A DNA stretch of 60,948 bases from an uncultured Anaeromyxobacter sp. (lineage in GTDB: Bacteria > Myxococcota > Myxococcia > Myxococcales > Anaeromyxobacteraceae). Of this stretch, positions 21,275 through 35,632 are shown piece by piece; the first letter of the stretch is position 1; each line of letters starts with the position of its first letter. Position numbers and translations under genes: made by a program. Location: the NCBI GenBank assembly GCA_903904005.1, contig CAIVAR010000036.1:1-60948 (forward strand), read 5' to 3'. The notes under the pieces are model-generated. The model had not been told where the DNA came from, did not search any database, and worked only from the letters and a program-made list of their open reading frames with translations.

Positions 21275-21433
21275 GTTTCTCCACGCCGGAAGCGGGGATC
21301 AGGAAAAACAGTTCTTCTCATGGTTCCGTGATCACTGGAGATTTCGGGAGGGCGAATCCGGCACGCCCCCTGCTCTGGGAAGAATCGTCGGCCGATGGCC
21401 GCGCCACAACCCTTCCCACGAGGTTCACACAAC

Positions 21434-21835
21434 ATGAAGAAGATCCTGAGCTCGTTCGTCGCCGTCGCCTTCCTCTCCGCCCCCGCCTTCGCCGACGACA
21501 AGGCCGCTGCCAAGCCGGCCGCTCCGGTTGCCGCTCCTGCCGCCCCCGCCGCGAAGCCGGCTGCCCCGGCTCCTGCTCCTGCCGCCGCCGCCGTCGCCCC
21601 CGCCGCCAAGCCGGCCGCTCCCGCCGCTGCCCCGGCCGCCGCCCCCACGAAGGCCGAGAAGAAGGCCAGCAAGAAGAAGGCCGCGAAGCCCGCCGCCGAT
21701 GCGAAGCCGGCCGCTCCTGCCGCCGCCCCCGCCGCTGCCCCGGCCGCCGCCAAGCCGGCCGCTCCTGCTGCTCCCGCCGCCGCCCCGGCCGCTGCCAAGC
21801 CGGCTGCTCCCGCTCCCGCCAAGGAGGCCAAGTAG
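21434..21835 (+). CDS. Secreted Lys/Ala/Pro-repeat low-complexity protein
   Basis: A 133-residue protein. A clear signal peptide MKKILSSFVAVAFLSAPAFA is followed by a mature part made almost only of Ala, Pro and Lys in repeats such as KPAAPAAAPAA, with one central lysine-rich stretch (KAEKKASKKKAAK). Composition resembles the PAKA-type linkers of TonB-like and histone-like proteins. It is highly basic and extended, so periplasmic binding to an anionic polymer is possible, but no domain is seen. A strong terminator follows. The reading frame is supported by the signal peptide and by flanking regulatory elements. Confidence 0.75.
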   Translation: MKKILSSFVAVAFLSAPAFADDKAAAKPAAPVAAPAAPAAKPAAPAPAPAAAAVAPAAKPAAPAAAPAAAPTKAEKKASKKKAAKPAADAKPAAPAAAPAAAPAAAKPAAPAAPAAAPAAAKPAAPAPAKEAK

Positions 21836-21867
21836 AAGCGAGCGCTCTCCAAAGCCCAAGACCTTCG

Positions 21868-21893
21868 AGGCCGGTGGCGAAAGCCATCGGCCT
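21868..21893 (+). terminator. Intrinsic terminator after the repeat protein
   Basis: AGGCCGGTGGC-GAAA-GCCATCGGCCT forms an 11-bp stem (one G-T wobble) capped by a GAAA tetraloop and followed by TGTCGTTT. It lies 33 bases after the stop codon and is the clearest terminator in the window. Confidence 0.75.
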
Positions 21894-21933
21894 TGTCGTT
21901 TCCGGCGAGGGCGATTCGGGGCAGAATCCCCCC

Positions 21934-22710
21934 ATGGAATCCGAGCGACCCCGAACGTCGATCAAGCCACCGAGCGCCGTCCCGCTCGTGCTGGTGGTCC
22001 TGGCCATCGTCGCCGCCGCCGGCGGCGGGCTCTACTGGTTCCTGTCGAAATCCCCGCCGCCCCGCGCACCGGGCACGCCGGCGGACGCCGTGGCCGACCC
22101 ACCCCCTGCCGCAACCGGGCCGGCCGTGGACGCGGGCCGGCAGCGGACGCTCCTCGAGGCGGTGTCACCCGACCCGATCCTGCGCCGGCTCCTCGGCGAG
22201 GGGGAGCTTTCCCGGCGCTGGGCCGTCGCCGTCGAGAACCTGGCCAACGACGTCGTGCCCCGGAAGCAGCTCGAGCCCTTCGCCCCGAAGGGCACCTTCG
22301 CCGTGGTGCGCCGGGGCGGCACGGCCTACGTCGACCCGCAGTCCTACCGGCGCTACGACCTCTTCGGCGACGCGGTGGCCTCGGTCGACGTCGACGGGCT
22401 GGTCATCGCCTACGCCGCCCTCCGCCCCGGCCTGGAGGCCGCATACCGCGCGCTCGGCTACCCCGACGGCTCGATCGACCGGGCCGCGGCGCGTGCGCTG
22501 CACCGCATCGAGCTCGCGCCGGTACGGGACGGGGAGCTCGCCGTGGTGGAGGGGCCGGGGACCACCTGGGCCTACGCCGACCCGGCGATGGAGCGGCTCG
22601 GCGACGTCGACAAGCAGATGATGCGGCTCGGGCCCCGCAACGCGCGGATCCTCCAGGCGAAGGCGCGGGAGATCGCGCGGGCGCTGGGGCTCGGCGCGCC
22701 GGCGCGCTGA
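21934..22710 (+). CDS. DUF3014 family protein, single N-terminal membrane anchor
   Basis: A 258-residue protein. A short cytoplasmic tail is followed by one membrane helix (VPLVLVVLAIVAAAGGGLYWF) and a Pro/Ala linker. The conserved domain runs from TLLEAVSPDPILRRLLGEG through RRWAVAVENLANDVVPRKQ, RYDLFGDAVASVDVDGLVIAYAALRPGLEAAYRALGY and MMRLGPRNARILQAKAREI. These are the DUF3014 landmarks. The domain should be periplasmic; function is unknown. It converges with truA, with three bases between the two genes. Confidence 0.86.
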   Translation: MESERPRTSIKPPSAVPLVLVVLAIVAAAGGGLYWFLSKSPPPRAPGTPADAVADPPPAATGPAVDAGRQRTLLEAVSPDPILRRLLGEGELSRRWAVAVENLANDVVPRKQLEPFAPKGTFAVVRRGGTAYVDPQSYRRYDLFGDAVASVDVDGLVIAYAALRPGLEAAYRALGYPDGSIDRAAARALHRIELAPVRDGELAVVEGPGTTWAYADPAMERLGDVDKQMMRLGPRNARILQAKAREIARALGLGAPAR

Positions 22711-28178: not shown

Positions 28179-29693
28179 ATGGCTTACCGGTCCCTGCGCG
28201 ATTTCCTCGATCGGCTGGAGCGGGCCGGCGAGCTGGCCCGTGTCACCGAGCCCGTCGACCTGAAGCTCGACATGGCGGCGCTGGCCGACCGTGCCGCCAA
28301 GCAGCAGGGGCCGGCGCTGCTCTTCGAGAAGCCCTCCTCCGGCGTGCTGCCGGTGGCCATGAACCTCTTCGGCACCCGGCGCCGCGCCGCCTGGGCGCTC
28401 TCCTGCGAGGACCTCGACGAGCCGGCCAGCGAGCTCCGGGCCCTTCTCAAGATGGCGCCGCCGCAGGGGCTCTGGGACAAGCTCAAGATGATCCCGAAGC
28501 TCGGGAGGCTCGCGTCCCTGCCGCCGAAGCACGTCTCCTCCGGTCCGGTGCAGGAGATCGTCGACCGCGAGCCCGACATGGGCTCGATCCCGGTGCTCAC
28601 CACCTGGCCGCACGACGGCGGGCCGTTCATCACCCTGCCGCAGGTCATCACCCGCGATCCCGAGACCGGCATCCGCAACGTGGGCATGTACCGCTGCCAG
28701 GTGATGGGGCCGCGCAAGGTCGGACTTCACTGGCAGCTCCACAAGACCGCCCACGCCCACTGGCGCGCCTACCGCAAGCGCGGCGAGCGCATGCCGGTGG
28801 CCATCGCGCTGGGCGGCGACCCGGCGCTCACCTACTGCGCCTCGGCGCCGCTCCCGCCGGGCATCGACGAGTACCTCTTCGCCGGCTTCCTGCGGAAGGA
28901 GTCGGTTCACATGGTGAAGGGCGTGACCGTGGACCTCGAGGTCCCGGCCGACGCCGACGTGGTCATCGAGGGCTACGTCTCCGAGCAGGGCGTGGTGCGG
29001 GAGGGCCCCTTCGGCGACCACACCGGCTACTACTCGCTCGCCGACGACTATCCGTTCCTCGAGGTCACGGCCATCACCCGGCGGCGCGACGCGATCTACC
29101 CCGCCACCGTGGTCGGCCCGCCGCCCATGGAGGACTACTGGATGGGCACCGCCACCGAGCGGCTCTTCCTGCCCATGCTCCAGCTCGTCTTCCCCGAGGT
29201 GGTGGACATGGCCTTCCCGCCGGAAGGGGTCTTCCACAACCTCTGCTTCCTCTCCATCAGGAAGGACTTCCCGGGGCACGCCAGGAAGCTCATGCACGGC
29301 CTGTGGGGCTCCGGGCAGATGTCGGCCACCAAGACGCTCGTGGTCTTCGACGAGGACGTCGACGTGCACGACTTCTCGCAGTGCGCCTGGCGCGCCTTCG
29401 CGAACGTCGACGCGAAGCGCGACATGGTGGTGCTGGACGGCCCGGTCGACGTGCTCGACCACGCCTCCACCGCCTTCGGCCTGGGCGCCAAGGTGGGTAT
29501 CGACGCCACCAAGAAGTTCGTCGAGGAGGGCGGGCGCGAGTGGCCCGAGCCCTGCGTCCACCCGCCCGAGGTGCTGGCCCGCATGGACGCGCTCTACGAG
29601 CGGCTCGTGCCCGGCGCGAAGGCTCCGGTGCGCCCGCGCATCGCCCTCCCGCCTGCGGCCAGCTGGATCCCGCGGCGCGGAGGCGGCGCGTGA
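28179..29693 (+). CDS. UbiD-family decarboxylase of menaquinone biosynthesis
   Basis: A 504-residue prenylated-FMN-dependent decarboxylase. It should remove the carboxylate of the prenylated 6-naphthoate in the late futalosine pathway (the MqnL/UbiD role). Landmarks: PVLTTWPHDGGPFITLPQVITRD, GLHWQLHKTAHAHWR, EGPFGDHTGYY (with the conserved catalytic acids), and YPATVVGPPPMEDYWMG. The length is normal. Its stop overlaps the GTG of the next methyltransferase (GTGA). Activity requires prenyl-FMN made by UbiX, whose gene two positions downstream is only a remnant. Confidence 0.92.
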   Translation: MAYRSLRDFLDRLERAGELARVTEPVDLKLDMAALADRAAKQQGPALLFEKPSSGVLPVAMNLFGTRRRAAWALSCEDLDEPASELRALLKMAPPQGLWDKLKMIPKLGRLASLPPKHVSSGPVQEIVDREPDMGSIPVLTTWPHDGGPFITLPQVITRDPETGIRNVGMYRCQVMGPRKVGLHWQLHKTAHAHWRAYRKRGERMPVAIALGGDPALTYCASAPLPPGIDEYLFAGFLRKESVHMVKGVTVDLEVPADADVVIEGYVSEQGVVREGPFGDHTGYYSLADDYPFLEVTAITRRRDAIYPATVVGPPPMEDYWMGTATERLFLPMLQLVFPEVVDMAFPPEGVFHNLCFLSIRKDFPGHARKLMHGLWGSGQMSATKTLVVFDEDVDVHDFSQCAWRAFANVDAKRDMVVLDGPVDVLDHASTAFGLGAKVGIDATKKFVEEGGREWPEPCVHPPEVLARMDALYERLVPGAKAPVRPRIALPPAASWIPRRGGGA

Positions 29694-30394
29694 CCGGCGT
29701 CCCCCTTCCCGGGCAGGGCGAGCGCGCCCAGGCGGTGCGCGCGATGTTCGACCGCATCGCCCCCACCTACGACCTGCTCAACCGGGTCATGACGCTCCGG
29801 GTGGATCAGCTCTGGCGGCGGCGGGCGGTGCGCACGCTGCGCCTCGCGCCGGGAGAGCGGCTCCTCGACGTGTGCGCCGGGACCATGGACGTGGCCGCCG
29901 AGGCGCGCCGGCAGTACCCGCAGGCCATCGTGCTGGGCAGCGACTTCTCCATCCCCATGCTCTCCCGCGGCGCGGTGAAGACCGGGTTGCCCGCCGCCAC
30001 CGCCGACGCGCTCCACCTTCCCTTCCGGTCCGGCTCGGTCGACGCGGTCACGGTGGCCTTCGGCGTGCGCAACCTCGACAGCCACGAGGTCGGGCTCTCC
30101 GAGATGGCGCGGGTGATGAAGCCCGGCGCCCGCCTCGCCATCCTCGAGTTCTTCCGCCCCGAGTCGACCGGCACGCGCGCCTTCCACGGCGCGTACAACA
30201 AGCTCGCGCTCCCGGTGATGGGGCGGCTGCTCTCCGCCGACGCCGGCGCCTACCGGTACCTGGTCGAGTCGATGGAGCGCTTCGCGTCCCTGCCCGAGTT
30301 CATCGAATCGGCCGGACGGGCCGGCTTCCGGGACGTGAAGGGGGAGCTGCTCTTCCCGGGCGTCTGCGGGCTGGTCACGGGGGTGCGCGCGTGA
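29690..30394 (+). CDS. menG: Demethylmenaquinone methyltransferase (UbiE/MenG)
   Basis: Last step of menaquinone synthesis, C-methylation of demethylmenaquinone with SAM. It has 234 residues. N-terminal VRAMFDRIAPTYDLLNRVMTLRVDQLWRRRAV, the SAM loop LLDVCAGTMDVAAEA (GTMD replaces the more common GTGD), VAFGVRNLDSHEVGLSEMARVMKPGARLAILEF and the C-terminal GAYRYLVESMERFASLPEF all match UbiE. The GTG start overlaps the stop of the upstream decarboxylase gene. Its own stop overlaps the GTG of the ubiX remnant. Confidence 0.93.
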   Translation: MTGVPLPGQGERAQAVRAMFDRIAPTYDLLNRVMTLRVDQLWRRRAVRTLRLAPGERLLDVCAGTMDVAAEARRQYPQAIVLGSDFSIPMLSRGAVKTGLPAATADALHLPFRSGSVDAVTVAFGVRNLDSHEVGLSEMARVMKPGARLAILEFFRPESTGTRAFHGAYNKLALPVMGRLLSADAGAYRYLVESMERFASLPEFIESAGRAGFRDVKGELLFPGVCGLVTGVRA

Positions 30395-30534
30395 GGCTCG
30401 TCGTCGCCGTGGGCGGGGCCTCCGGCTCGCCGTACGCGAAGCGGCTGCCCGACCGCCCCGGCATCCCCAACGAGCTGATGCGCCGCTGGACCGGGGTCTC
30501 CCCCCACGGCTGCGGCGAACCGACGGAGGAATGA
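30391..30534 (+). pseudogene. ubiX: Flavin prenyltransferase UbiX, in-frame internally deleted remnant (47 codons)
   Basis: An intact reading frame from GTG (overlapping the menG stop) to TGA (overlapping the mqnE ATG). Residues 1-19, VRLVVAVGGASGSPYAKRL, match the UbiX N-terminus (V-G-x-T/G-GASG-x-x-YA-x-RL, the FMN-binding loop). Residues about 20-37, PDRPGIPNELMRRWTG, match the very end of UbiX (R-x-LD-x-x-GI-x-x-x-L-x-RW-x-G). The roughly 140 residues in between, including most of the active site, are missing. Such a peptide cannot fold as UbiX. Both coupled ends are kept, so the deletion preserves translation into mqnE. Confidence 0.78.
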
Positions 30535-31694
30535 TGCTCTCGTCCCTGGCGAACCGCGCACTCGAGCGCGACGGGCTCGGCCCCATCCGAGACAAGGTGC
30601 TCTCCGGCACGCGGCTCTCGCAGGCCGAGGCCATCACCCTCTTCGAGGCCCGCGACCTGGCGGCGCTGGGCGCGCTCGCCAACCACGTTCGCGAGGCGCG
30701 CCACGGCGACTCCACCTTCTACAACCGCAACGTCCACCTGAACCCCACCAACGTCTGCGTCGCCACCTGCAAGTTCTGCTCGTTCGCCCGCCCCGACGAC
30801 AAGCAGGCCAGCGAGGGCTACACGATGTCCCTCGACCAGGCGGTGCACCACGTGGTGTCGAAGCGGGCGCTCGGGATCACCGAGGTGCACATCGTCTCCG
30901 GGCTCCACCCCGACCTTCCCTGGTCGTACTACCTGGAGACCGTCCGGCGCATCCGGCAGGCCTGGCCCGAGCTGCACATCAAGGGCTACACCGCGGTCGA
31001 GCTGCACTTCTTCGCCGAGAAGTTCGGGATGACGCTCGAGCAGGTGCTCTCCGAGCTCATCGCCGCCGGCCTCACCACCATCCCGGGCGGCGGCGCCGAG
31101 ATCTTCGCCTCCCGGGTCCGCCGGAAGATCTGCGACGACAAGGCCACCGCCGAGCAGTGGCTCGACGTGCACCGCACCGCCCACCGGCTGGGCTTGAAGT
31201 CGAACGCCACCATGCTCTACGGCCACATCGAGACGCTGGCCGAGCGGGTCGACCACATGGCCCGGCTGCGCGACCTCCAGGACGAGACCCGTGGGTTCCA
31301 GGTCTTCATCCCGCTCGCCTTCCACCCCGAGCACAACATGATCGGCAAGGCCTTCCCCAAGCCCACCGGCTACGACGGCCTGCGCACCTTCGCGGTGGCC
31401 CGCCTCTTCCTCGACAACTTCGACCACGTGAAGGCCTACTGGGTCTCGCTGGGGGAGCGGCTCGCGCAGGCCTCGCTCTCCTTCGGCGTCGACGACGTCG
31501 ACGGCACCGTCCTCGAGGAGCGCATCTACCACATGGCCGGCGCCACCACGCCGCAGGCCCTGTCCGAGGCGCAGCTCCACCGGATGATCCGCTTCGCCGG
31601 GCGCGTGCCCGTCGAGCGCGACAGCCTCTACCACGTGCTCCGGGTGCACGACGCCACGGCGCCGCTGCCGGCCAGCGCCGGAGGCGCCCGATGA
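30534..31694 (+). CDS. mqnE: Aminofutalosine synthase (radical SAM)
   Basis: Joins 3-[(1-carboxyvinyl)oxy]benzoate with SAM-derived adenosyl to give aminofutalosine. It has 386 residues. The radical SAM cluster motif NVCVATCKFC (C75, C79, C82) follows NRNVHLNPT. HIVSGLHPDLPWSYYLE, IPGGGAEIF and IPLAFHPEHN are family landmarks. Two adjacent ATGs occur; the second (30534) lies at a better distance from GGAGG, while the first (30531) would add one Met. The stop overlaps the mqnA ATG. Confidence 0.94.
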   Translation: MLSSLANRALERDGLGPIRDKVLSGTRLSQAEAITLFEARDLAALGALANHVREARHGDSTFYNRNVHLNPTNVCVATCKFCSFARPDDKQASEGYTMSLDQAVHHVVSKRALGITEVHIVSGLHPDLPWSYYLETVRRIRQAWPELHIKGYTAVELHFFAEKFGMTLEQVLSELIAAGLTTIPGGGAEIFASRVRRKICDDKATAEQWLDVHRTAHRLGLKSNATMLYGHIETLAERVDHMARLRDLQDETRGFQVFIPLAFHPEHNMIGKAFPKPTGYDGLRTFAVARLFLDNFDHVKAYWVSLGERLAQASLSFGVDDVDGTVLEERIYHMAGATTPQALSEAQLHRMIRFAGRVPVERDSLYHVLRVHDATAPLPASAGGAR

Positions 31695-33553
31695 AGCTCC
31701 GTGCCGCAGCCGTCTCCTTCCTCAATGCGCGCCCGCTCACCGCCGGGCTCGCCGACAGCCCGCTCATCGACCTGGTGCTGGCCGAGCCCTCGCTGTGCGC
31801 CTCCATGCTCGAGGCCGGCGACGTCGAGCTGGCGCTCCTGCCTGTGGGCGCGCTGCCCGGGCAGGACTGGGAGGTGGTGCCGGGCATCGCCATCGGCGCC
31901 GACGGCCCGGTGCAGACGGTGGTGCTGGCCGGCGAGACCCCGCCCGAGGAGTGGGACGAGGTCTTCCTCGACACCGCCTCGCGCACCTCGCAGATCCTGG
32001 CGCAGCTCGTGCTGCGCGAGCGCGGGCTCTCCCCCCGCTACACCCACATGCCGGCCGTCGAGGGGCTCTCCCGCGCGGTGGGGCCGAAGGGGGCGCTCGT
32101 CATCGGCGACCGGGCCTTCGAGGTGAAGAAGAAGGTGGTCCTCGACCTGGGGCGCGAGTGGAACCGGCTGACGAAGCTCCCCATGGTCTTCGCCGTCTGG
32201 GCGGCCCGCCCCGGCGTGCTCCGCCCGGAGGACGTGCAGGAGCTGGCCCGCGGCGCCCAGGTCGGCCTGGGCATGCGCACCGAGCTGGCCCAGGCCTTCG
32301 CCCGCGAGGCGGGGGGAGACCCCGAGCATTACCGGCGCTACCTCACCCAGAAGATCCGCTACGGGCTCGGCCCCCACGAGCTGGAGGGGCTCGAGACCTT
32401 CCTCGGCCGCGCCGCCGCGGTGGGGCTCGTCCCGCCCACCACCCTGCGCTTCGCCGACGACGTGGTGCGCAGCCGGCGCATCCGCCGTGCCGTCTCGGTC
32501 GACACCGCGCTCCAGAAGGGGGCCGATGGCGAGCGGATCGACGCCGACGAGGCCGAGGCGCTCGACGAGAAGGCACCGCTCCTCGAGCTGGGGCTGGCCG
32601 CCGACATGCGCCGCCGGGCGCTGCACCCCGAGGGGGTGGTCACCTACATCGTGTCACGCAACGTGAACTACACGAACGTGTGCACGACCGCCTGCTCCTT
32701 CTGCGCCTTCTACCGACCGCGCAGCCACGGCGAGGCCTACGTGCTCGACCGCGGGCAGATGGCCCGCAAGATCGAGGAGACGCTCTCGCTGGGGGGCATC
32801 GAGATCCTTCTGCAGGGCGGGCTCCACCCCGACCTGGGCGTGGAGTGGTACGAGGATCTCTTCCGCTGGGTGAAGTCGACCTACCCCGCCATCAACCTGC
32901 ACGCCCTCTCCCCCGAGGAGATCTGGCACATCGCCCGCACCAGCCAGCTCCCGCTCGACGCCACCATCGACAAGCTGGTCTCCGCCGGGCTCGACTCCAT
33001 CCCGGGCGGCGGCGCCGAGGTGCTCGACGACGAGGTCCGCCGGCGCATCGCCCCGCTCAAGTGCTCCACCGACGAGTGGCTCACGGTGATGCGCGCCGCC
33101 CACCGCAAGGGGCTGAAGAGCACGGCCACCCTCATGTTCGGGGTGGGCGAGCAGGCCCAGCACCGGGTCAACCACTTCCTGCGGCTGCGCGAACTGCAGG
33201 ACGAGACCCAGGGCTTCACCGCCTTCATCTGCTGGACCTTCCAGCCCGAGAACACCCGGCTCGAGCCGTCCGACAACAGCGCCCACGCCTACCTGCGCAC
33301 GAACGCGCTGGCCCGCCTGGTCCTCGACAACGTCCCCAACTTCCAGGCCTCCTGGGTCACCATGGGCGGCGGCGTGGCCCAGGCCGCCCTGCACATGGGC
33401 TGCAACGACTTCGGCAGCGTGATGATCGAGGAGAACGTGGTCTCCGCCGCCGGCACGACCTTCCAGATGGACGCGGAGGAGGTCGAGCGGCACATCCGCG
33501 ACGCCGGCTTCCGCCCGGCGCGCCGGAACATGCGCTACCAGCTGGTCGCGTAG
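31691..33553 (+). CDS. mqnAC: Fused chorismate dehydratase (MqnA) - cyclic dehypoxanthinyl futalosine synthase (MqnC)
   Basis: One 620-codon frame with no internal stop. Residues about 1-265 are MqnA: KLRAAAVSFLNARPLTAGL, ASRTSQILAQLVL, ALVIGDRAFEVKKK. A short charged linker (VVRSRRIRRAVSVDTALQKG) leads into residues about 285-620, MqnC: radical SAM motif NVCTTACSFC (C331, C335, C338), LQGGLHPDLGVEWYE, IPGGGAEVLDDEVRRRI, and FICWTFQPENTRLEPSDNSAH. These enzymes are separate proteins in the well-studied organisms and act at the first and the fourth step. No ATG and no ribosome site suits an internal MqnC start, so a genuine fusion is favoured. Confidence 0.9.
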   Translation: MKLRAAAVSFLNARPLTAGLADSPLIDLVLAEPSLCASMLEAGDVELALLPVGALPGQDWEVVPGIAIGADGPVQTVVLAGETPPEEWDEVFLDTASRTSQILAQLVLRERGLSPRYTHMPAVEGLSRAVGPKGALVIGDRAFEVKKKVVLDLGREWNRLTKLPMVFAVWAARPGVLRPEDVQELARGAQVGLGMRTELAQAFAREAGGDPEHYRRYLTQKIRYGLGPHELEGLETFLGRAAAVGLVPPTTLRFADDVVRSRRIRRAVSVDTALQKGADGERIDADEAEALDEKAPLLELGLAADMRRRALHPEGVVTYIVSRNVNYTNVCTTACSFCAFYRPRSHGEAYVLDRGQMARKIEETLSLGGIEILLQGGLHPDLGVEWYEDLFRWVKSTYPAINLHALSPEEIWHIARTSQLPLDATIDKLVSAGLDSIPGGGAEVLDDEVRRRIAPLKCSTDEWLTVMRAAHRKGLKSTATLMFGVGEQAQHRVNHFLRLRELQDETQGFTAFICWTFQPENTRLEPSDNSAHAYLRTNALARLVLDNVPNFQASWVTMGGGVAQAALHMGCNDFGSVMIEENVVSAAGTTFQMDAEEVERHIRDAGFRPARRNMRYQLVA

Positions 33554-33560
33554 GCGCCGC

Positions 33561-34766
33561 ATGCCCGTCCGCGTCGTCGCTGCGACCTGGGTGCTGCCCG
33601 GACCGGACCTCCCGCCCCTGCGGGACGGGGCGGTGGCGCTCGACGGCGACCGGATCGTCGACGTGGGGCCGCGGCTGGTGATGGAAGCGCAGCACGGCGC
33701 GGCCGAACGGGTCGACGCGGTTCTCCTCCCGGCGCTGGTGAACGCCCACCTGCACCTCGAGCTCTCCCACCTGGCCGGGAAGGTCCCGGGCGGCCGGGGG
33801 CTCGTGCCCTGGATCGAGGCGCTGGTGGCCCAGCGGGCCCGGCGCGACGGCGCCATCGAGGAGGGCATGGCCCGGGGCGCGGCGGCGCTGCGGGAGGCCG
33901 GCGTGGCCGCGGTGGGGGACGTGACGAACGGCCTCGGCTCCGCGCGCCACCTGGCGCGGGAGGGGATCTCGGGCACGCTCTTCCACGAGGTCTACGGCTT
34001 CACCGAGGCGCGGGCGGCGGAGGCGATGCGGGCGGCCTCGGAGGCCCGGAACCGGATGGGCCCCCCGGGGCCCGGGCTGCGGGTGGCGCCGAGCCCGCAC
34101 GCCGTCTACTCCACCCACCTGCCCGCCGCGGCCGCGCTGCTCTCCGCCGGCCCGGCCTCGATCCACCTCGCCGAGGTCCCCGAGGAGCGGGCCTTCGTCG
34201 CCGAGGCGAGCGGCCCCTTCGCCGACCTCGTGCTGCGGCTCGGCCTCGACCCGGGCGCGCTCCGCCCCTTCGGCCGGTCGGCGGTGGGCGCGGTGTCCCG
34301 CTGGCTCGGCCCGGGGACGCTGGTGGTGCACGCCGTCGACCTCGACGACCTGGACGTGGCCACGCTGCGCGCCTCCGGGGCCACCGTCGTCCTCTGCCCG
34401 CGCTCGAACCGGCACGTCTCCGGTGGGTTCCCCGACCTGCCGCGCCTGCTCGCGGCCGACATCCCGCTCGCGGTGGGCACCGACTCGCTGGCCTCGTCCC
34501 CCTCCCTCTCCCCGCTCGAGGAGCTCGCCGTGCTGCACCAGGCGTTCCCGGAGGTGAGCCCCGCGCGGCTCCTCGCGATGGGCTGGAACGGCACGGCGGT
34601 CGGCGCTCCCGAAGTGGGCAGGCTGGCCGCCGGCACGGCGCCGGGCGTGCTCTCCGTGCCACTCGAGGGGGCGGACCCGATCGACCCCTTCGCCTGGCTC
34701 CTGCGGGCCCAGGCTCCGGGCGCCCTCTCCTGGCTCGCCCGCCACCGTCCCGAGGACCGCGCATGA
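33561..34766 (+). CDS. mqnX: Aminofutalosine deaminase (amidohydrolase family)
   Basis: A 401-residue metal-dependent hydrolase. The first metal-binding pair is in LPALVNAHLHLELSHLAGK (H63, H65). APSPHAVYSTH and SIHLAEVPEERAF supply further ligands, and GTDSLASSPSLSPLEEL holds the conserved Asp. NAHLHLELS is the phrase typical of 6-amino-6-deoxyfutalosine deaminases, which turn aminofutalosine into futalosine. The position right after mqnE and mqnA-mqnC supports this. A plain cytosine/chlorohydrolase-type activity is the alternative. It starts 7 bases after the previous stop and overlaps the next gene. Confidence 0.85.
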   Translation: MPVRVVAATWVLPGPDLPPLRDGAVALDGDRIVDVGPRLVMEAQHGAAERVDAVLLPALVNAHLHLELSHLAGKVPGGRGLVPWIEALVAQRARRDGAIEEGMARGAAALREAGVAAVGDVTNGLGSARHLAREGISGTLFHEVYGFTEARAAEAMRAASEARNRMGPPGPGLRVAPSPHAVYSTHLPAAAALLSAGPASIHLAEVPEERAFVAEASGPFADLVLRLGLDPGALRPFGRSAVGAVSRWLGPGTLVVHAVDLDDLDVATLRASGATVVLCPRSNRHVSGGFPDLPRLLAADIPLAVGTDSLASSPSLSPLEELAVLHQAFPEVSPARLLAMGWNGTAVGAPEVGRLAAGTAPGVLSVPLEGADPIDPFAWLLRAQAPGALSWLARHRPEDRA

Positions 34767-35632
34767 CCGTCGGCGCCGTTGCACGAATGGTGAAGTTCTC
34801 CCATTCCCTCTTCGCCCTGCCCTTCGCGGTGTCGGCGGTGGTCCTGGTGTCGGGGCAGGCCCGCCTCGAGCCGGTCCGGCTCCTGCTCGTGGCGGTCGCG
34901 GTGGTGGCGGCGCGCACCGCGGCGATGGCGATGAACCGCATCGCCGATCGCTCCTTCGACGCGCGGAACCCGCGGACGGCGGCCCGGGAGCTGGTGACCG
35001 GCGAGGTGTCGCCGGTGGCGGCCTGGGCCCTCCTCGTCGGGTCGAGCCTGGTCTTCGTCGCCGCGGCGGCGCTCCTCTCCCCCCTCACCGGCTGGCTCGC
35101 GCTGCCGGTGCTCGGGATCCTGCTCGGCTACTCGTACGCGAAGCGCTTCACCTGGGCCTGCCACCTCTGGCTCGGCGTGGCCCAGGCGCTCGGCCCCATC
35201 GGCGTGGCCATCGCCCTCACCGGGACCGCTCCCCCGTCGGCGGTCCTCCTCGGCCTCGGGGTGGGTGCCTGGATCGCCGGCTTCGACGTCTTCTACTCGA
35301 TGCAGGACGCCGATTTCGACCGGTCCCTGGGACTCCACTCGATCCCGGCCCGCTTCGGGGTCGGCGGCGCTCTCGTCTGGGCCCGGGTGCTCCATGTCGT
35401 CGCCGTCCTGCTCCTCCTCGCCGCCGGGACGGCCGGCGCGCAGGGGCCGGCCTGGTTCCTCGGGACCGCGCTGCTCGCCGCGGTCCTCCTCGCCGAGCAC
35501 CTCTACGTCGCGCCGCAGGGGGTGCTCCGACCGGAGCGCATCGGGAAGGCCTTCTTCGACTTCAACGCATTCGCCTCGGTGGCCTTCGCGCTCTGCGCCA
35601 TCGCCGGACTGCTGCTGCGGGTGCGTTCGTGA
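34763..35632 (+). CDS. mqnP: UbiA-family prenyltransferase of menaquinone synthesis (MqnP-like)
   Basis: A 289-residue integral membrane enzyme with about eight helices that attaches the polyprenyl chain to the naphthoate ring. The first Asp motif is NRIADRSFDARNPRTAARE and the second YSMQDADFDRSLGLHSIPARFG. VKFSHSLFALPFA at the N-terminus is typical of the UbiA group that works in the futalosine pathway. The ATG overlaps the stop of the deaminase gene and the stop overlaps the GTG of the next gene. Confidence 0.92.
   Translation: MTVGAVARMVKFSHSLFALPFAVSAVVLVSGQARLEPVRLLLVAVAVVAARTAAMAMNRIADRSFDARNPRTAARELVTGEVSPVAAWALLVGSSLVFVAAAALLSPLTGWLALPVLGILLGYSYAKRFTWACHLWLGVAQALGPIGVAIALTGTAPPSAVLLGLGVGAWIAGFDVFYSMQDADFDRSLGLHSIPARFGVGGALVWARVLHVVAVLLLLAAGTAGAQGPAWFLGTALLAAVLLAEHLYVAPQGVLRPERIGKAFFDFNAFASVAFALCAIAGLLLRVRS

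Follow-up and report, generated by a model that had tools for sequence, protein, structure and literature searches.

The stretch of DNA analysed here (the window; 60,948 nt) is contig C36 of a draft genome of an uncultured Anaeromyxobacter sp. that amounts to 4.56 Mb in 186 contigs and is 98% complete. A futalosine-type menaquinone operon spans positions 28179-35632 of the window, with genes in the order ubiD/mqnL, menG, a 47-codon frame, mqnE, an mqnA-mqnC fusion, a gene for an aminofutalosine deaminase-like hydrolase and one for a ubiA-like prenyltransferase. The features on which the analysis rests are listed below, where N:S gives the amino-acid and silent changes on the branch leading to the window.

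28179..29693, + strand: ubiD-like menaquinone decarboxylase (mqnL), intact and constrained; TIGR03701 639.7 bits, cut-off 495.9; branch 7N:45S
29690..30394, + strand: menG/ubiE methyltransferase, intact; TIGR01934 206.6 bits, cut-off 158.35; branch 5N:23S
30391..30534, + strand: ubiX/mqnM remnant, 47 codons plus stop, made of 19 N-terminal and 28 C-terminal UbiX codons
30446..30453, + strand: deletion junction, TGCCCGAC in the window, matching the direct repeat at both breakpoints of the full-length gene
30525..30529, + strand: GGAGG, ribosome-binding-site-like motif of mqnE, within the last remnant codons
30531..31694, + strand: mqnE aminofutalosine synthase, intact; TIGR03700 509.2 bits, cut-off 434.55; branch 15N:23S
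31691..33553, + strand: MqnA-MqnC fusion of 620 aa; PF02621 at residues 3-242, TIGR03699 at 281-618
34763..35632, + strand: UbiA-like prenyltransferase, above the TIGR01475 cut-off, with MqnP models below theirs

The first gene encodes all three UbiD domains (PF20695, PF01977 and PF20696), and its family match (TIGR03701) identifies the UbiD-like enzyme that the original prediction had noted in this run of genes as an intact menaquinone decarboxylase. For the aminofutalosine deaminase-like hydrolase, the top NCBIfam match scored 103 bits against a cut-off of 320. The domains of the MqnA-MqnC fusion were checked in the window and, for MqnC only, at the relative locus L063; a frame of 620-626 aa with an MqnA-like start was seen at 11 of the 12 relatives' loci inspected, L064 being unmatched by the pattern used. 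Elsewhere in the window, positions 21318-22710 hold long frames that overlap one another and have a high content of Arg, Pro, Ala and Gly; one strand may encode a repeat-rich basic protein there.

The 47-codon frame runs from a GTG at 30391 to a TGA at 30532-30534, and the earlier observation that the frame and both of its overlaps are retained was confirmed, as it shares 4 nt with the menG stop and 4 nt with the start of mqnE (ATG at 30531). When compared with UbiX from two genomes of the same genus, G002 and G003, codons 1-19 of the frame match the N-terminus and the last 28 codons the C-terminus, and G002 UbiX used as a protein query against the window's own genome recovered the C-terminal piece at 30442-30531 with 83% identity. 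The shared position and the match of both ends in G002 and G003 show descent from an operon ubiX, bearing out the original prediction of a ubiX remnant left by an internal in-frame deletion. Middle codons are indeed absent, as had been proposed, but alignment with the full-length ubiX of both G002 and G003 opens a gap of exactly 447 nt, or 149 of 196 codons, rather than the approximately 420 nt and 140 codons first estimated. The counterparts of P. aeruginosa UbiX R122, K129, R139, E140, Y169 and R185, which we take to be active-site residues, all align inside the 149 deleted codons. The frame resembles the operon UbiX in lying between menG and mqnE and in both of its ends, and derives from a full-length ubiX, but differs from it in having lost most of the gene, including the conserved middle of the enzyme, and in having no recognisable PF02441/TIGR00421 domain. 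Named MqnM in the futalosine menaquinone pathway (PMC4746308), the full-length protein is a UbiX flavin prenyltransferase. The 47-aa product gave no family matches in Pfam (E up to 10) or NCBIfam (E up to 0.001), and family and protein searches of the genome for the missing middle of ubiX returned no match elsewhere at E up to 0.001.

The family genomes searched numbered 24, the window's own included, and 22 of them have a full-length ubiX of the operon type. The two genomes without it are the window's own and G001, which is 74% complete and is also without a menG match. The gene directly follows menG in 21 of the 22 relatives that carry it; in the remaining one, G016, menG is not visible because only 60 nt of the contig precede ubiX. 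In all 22 relatives mqnE lies behind ubiX (17 by motif, 5 by tblastn), and ubiX is 194-229 codons long, counted from the second codon. The refuting case named with the original prediction, that relatives conserve the short frame as a separate small protein, is not supported, as the gene is full-length in every one of these 22 relatives.

The ends of the missing segment coincide with a direct repeat in the full-length gene, 8 bp long in G002 (TCCTCGAC) and 6 bp in G003 (CTCGAC), and its two copies share one codon phase, each supplying a Leu-Asp pair (in RLLDFL and in RVLDRL). Recombination or slippage between these copies, a plausible though not proven route to the deletion, would give an in-frame product automatically and with no need for selection. 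In G002 ubiX the breakpoint repeat is one of eight repeats of 8-9 bp lying at least 60 nt apart, while in G003 it is only 6 bp and falls outside that gene's list of repeats of at least 7 bp; among repeats of at least 8 bp and at least 60 nt apart, those spaced by a multiple of three number 7 of 8 in G002 ubiX and 5 of 11 in G003 ubiX. Since the frame is dictated by the phase of the repeat, its retention is no evidence for selection, and the suggestion that the deletion had been kept for translation coupling to mqnE is not supported as stated, repeat phase alone being enough to account for the frame. An in-frame deletion need not signal selection for frame, and the present case, in which the end repeats are themselves in phase, is an example. 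Selection, if any, may act on the 3' end of the remnant: all 22 relatives have GGAGG or GAGGA within the final 18 nt of their ubiX, the window has GGAGG, and because this motif of mqnE lies in the end of the remnant, persistence of that end requires no peptide function.

Changes in the 46 retained codons, with the start excluded, were polarised using G003 as the outgroup. This revealed 6N:2S on the window branch and 0N:6S on the G002 branch, with one change ambiguous (Fisher p 0.0097); the counts are small, with 14 base changes polarised in all and a single codon accounting for two of them. Over the codons after the start of ubiD (479), menG (233) and mqnE (359), the pooled counts were 27N:91S on the window branch and 29N:83S on the G002 branch (flank vs flank p 0.65), and these neighbouring genes remain constrained. 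On the window branch the remnant differed from the pooled flanks (Fisher p 0.0041), from ubiD (7:45, p 0.0008) and from menG (5:23, p 0.005), with p 0.12 against mqnE (15:23); the excess gave p 0.012 with the double change counted once and p 0.034 with two Leu-to-Pro changes removed. Windows of 46 codons with at least as many amino-acid changes as the remnant made up 55 of 313 in mqnE, 5 of 187 in menG and 0 of 433 in ubiD. The pairwise dN/dS with G002 was 0.21 for the remnant, against 0.07 for menG, 0.15 for mqnE and 0.08 for ubiD, and is thus raised but well below 1. The Leu-to-Pro changes fall at remnant codon 20, where all 22 relatives have Leu, and at codon 23, where all 22 have Leu, Met or Ile; the remaining changes (K to R, I to V and D to T) are mild, and Thr is found at the last position in some relatives. 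On these small counts, the pattern leans towards the retained codons having lost constraint and suggests that they did so for part of the branch.

These data bear on the possibility that the in-frame remnant is selected as a coupling leader, or as a small protein, through which ribosomes leaving menG reach mqnE. In its favour, the remnant still overlaps each neighbour by 4 nt, GGAGG still precedes the mqnE start, GGAGG or GAGGA stands near the end of ubiX throughout the 22 relatives, and the pairwise dN/dS of 0.21 is below 1; against this, the frame is explained by the phase of the repeat, six amino-acid changes stand beside two silent ones on the window branch, and the short form occurs in 0 of the 22 relatives with the locus, making selection of this kind unlikely.

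We consider it distinctly unlikely that the gap is an assembly artefact or a minority variant, with a consensus that dropped 447 bases at a short repeat and a living population that has the full ubiX. In favour of an artefact, the assembly is a 186-contig draft, a short direct repeat lies at the junction, and the signal of relaxed constraint is weak when set against mqnE alone (p 0.12). However, the 6-8 bp repeat is far shorter than the 141-nt overlap found at one contig end of the same assembly, so the join was probably present in the reads, and searches at E up to 0.001 detected no further piece of the operon ubiX in the genome. Amino-acid changes are also in excess in the retained codons (6N:2S vs 27N:91S in the neighbours), which suggests, again on small counts, that this is not the collapse of a working gene. 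The deletion of the ubiX middle is thus probably real.

Among the options offered by the original prediction for the supply of prenyl-FMN, namely another ubiX, a different cofactor route or a non-working pathway step, a search of the genome recovered the first. Only one UbiX scored above the TIGR00421 cut-off, on contig C33, and it is full-length (TIGR00421 234.4 bits, cut-off 108.9; NF004685 271.9 bits, cut-off 188), below the VdcB cut-off and nearest to the solved chain 1sbz. It shares 39% identity with the operon UbiX of G002, keeps the residues aligned to P. aeruginosa R122, K129, R139, E140 and Y169, and has a Lys at the position of R185, as does the solved 2ejb. The C33 copy is like Pad1-like UbiX in being a full-length UbiX, and differs from the operon UbiX in belonging to a different subfamily by NCBIfam scores, in lying in a low-GC cassette and in having a partner ubiD split by an insertion sequence. 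The operon copy is the only UbiX in G002 and G003, while G004 and G014 retain it alongside a second UbiX that shares 55-56% identity with that of C33. A third ubiX may have been missed, the assembly being a draft in 186 contigs that is 98% complete. The other PF02441 match in the genome, on contig C5, was rejected as a ubiX: it is CoaBC-like, its partial frame scoring 206 bits against a cut-off of 219.7.

The C33 ubiX sits in a prpF-ubiD-ubiX cassette of low GC, the ubiD of which is without its N-terminus at the contig end. The final 141 nt of C33 are identical at C128 and C72, and 91% identical at C48, and C128 runs through a transposase gene (DDE_Tnp_1, above cut-off) and then the UbiD N-terminal domain in matching orientation. 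The two parts of the cassette lie as follows.

C33:47980-48129 and C128:1-1559: split ubiD and the insertion sequence in it, which has inverted ends and is flanked by a 9-bp target duplication
C128:1672-3000: PrpF-family gene upstream of the split ubiD

The insertion sequence is 1,244 bp long (C128:1-1244), with inverted ends of 13 nt exact, or 20 nt with one mismatch, and the 9-bp target duplication CTTCAGGAT is present on both its C33 and its C128 side. The PrpF gene upstream of the split ubiD suggests that a prpF-ubiD-ubiX cassette was acquired. The genome has two UbiD central domains, one in the intact menaquinone UbiD and one in the gene split by the insertion sequence, and two ubiX genes, of which the menaquinone copy is gutted and the C33 copy intact; each cassette is half broken, and between them one UbiD and one UbiX survive intact. 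Apart from these, the model of the UbiD N-terminal domain weakly matched C142:10366-10503, scoring 21.7 bits, below its cut-off of 24.3.

Over 7.1 kb (C33:6001-13106, about 33 kb from ubiX), contig C33 shares 86% identity with G002, which places it in the genus and makes contamination unlikely. Its last 2 kb have 63% GC and its last 3.1 kb deviate in tetranucleotides (0.867, compared with 0.92-0.99 for chunks of the window), as would an acquired cassette. An ABC permease adjoining the C33 ubiX had no close match in the 23 other genomes (best-scoring 28%), which marks that end of the contig as accessory. The deviant composition of the last 2 kb and the adjoining gene without a close match in those 23 genomes would also fit a chimeric contig end, which this might conceivably be. 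A simple sigma-70 scan returned 0 promoter sites before the C33 ubiX, and the insertion sequence could be polar on it.

Taken together, our analysis favours, with a probability of roughly 0.7, the reading that the C33 UbiX supplies the menaquinone UbiD and that the remnant is a pseudogene whose end holds the ribosome-binding site of mqnE. The native operon ubiX (mqnM) would have been destroyed by the 447-nt deletion between short direct repeats, leaving a 47-codon remainder that is predicted to yield no working enzyme and to drift as a pseudogene, with its last codons persisting as the carrier of the mqnE ribosome-binding site. Prenyl-FMN for the intact MqnL would then be made by the Pad1-like C33 UbiX, which we presume to be expressed and to feed MqnL. 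The prpF-ubiD-ubiX cassette was probably acquired, and its ubiD would have been split later by the insertion sequence. The remnant has already changed, whereas one end of the insertion sequence still matches another copy over 141 nt without a difference; this suggests but does not prove an order of events in which the cassette was gained, the operon ubiX was then deleted and the insertion sequence came last.

The prenyl-FMN made by UbiX is in reduced form; it is taken up by UbiD and has to be oxidised there. That a foreign UbiX can serve a UbiD is indicated by the UbiD-type enzyme LpdC, which was active in cells when combined with P. aeruginosa UbiX, although some UbiDs require more than UbiX, according to the same source (PMC10865409). 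A counter-point to supply in trans is that G004 and G014 retain the operon ubiX despite a second UbiX; another is the Lys that the C33 copy has in place of R185. It is very unlikely that the menaquinone pathway is instead dead at decarboxylation, with no effective prenyl-FMN and an operon bound to decay, for while the native ubiX is destroyed and the remaining one lies downstream of an insertion sequence with no promoter recognised by the sigma-70 scan, ubiD, menG and mqnE have accumulated changes (27N:91S) similar to those of the G002 branch (29N:83S; p 0.65), and the excess in the remnant implies time since the loss, by which a dead operon should show marks.

Supply of the cofactor by the C33 UbiX would make this event one of an ordinary, known kind, a pseudogene with its function supplied in trans, for which the rescue is unusually clear but only probable. 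Pseudogenes after displacement arise when a native gene decays in the presence of another copy of its function, and the operon ubiX resembles them in decaying alongside such a copy. It differs in that the partner gene of the displacing copy is also broken, leaving the intact pair spread over two loci. On balance, we lean towards the wider reading that two ubiD/ubiX cassettes of different origin have decayed reciprocally; the quinone pathway would then rely on a UbiX that was probably gained by horizontal transfer and later lost its own UbiD to the insertion sequence. We found no record of such a case in the open-access literature searched, which is not proof of absence.

It is the reciprocal decay of the two cassettes that gives the locus its interest. 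The completeness of a pathway is often deduced from gene neighbourhood, and here an operon that looks complete is without a working cofactor gene, the function of which is probably encoded next to a broken partner gene on a different contig. If this is true, the two surviving genes form a cross-cassette pair linked by a diffusible cofactor alone, and constitute a natural test that MqnL is indifferent to the subfamily of its UbiX. If confirmed, this would be a natural instance in which a UbiD previously served by one UbiX subfamily draws its prenyl-FMN from another, with a bearing on the annotation and expression of UbiD enzymes.
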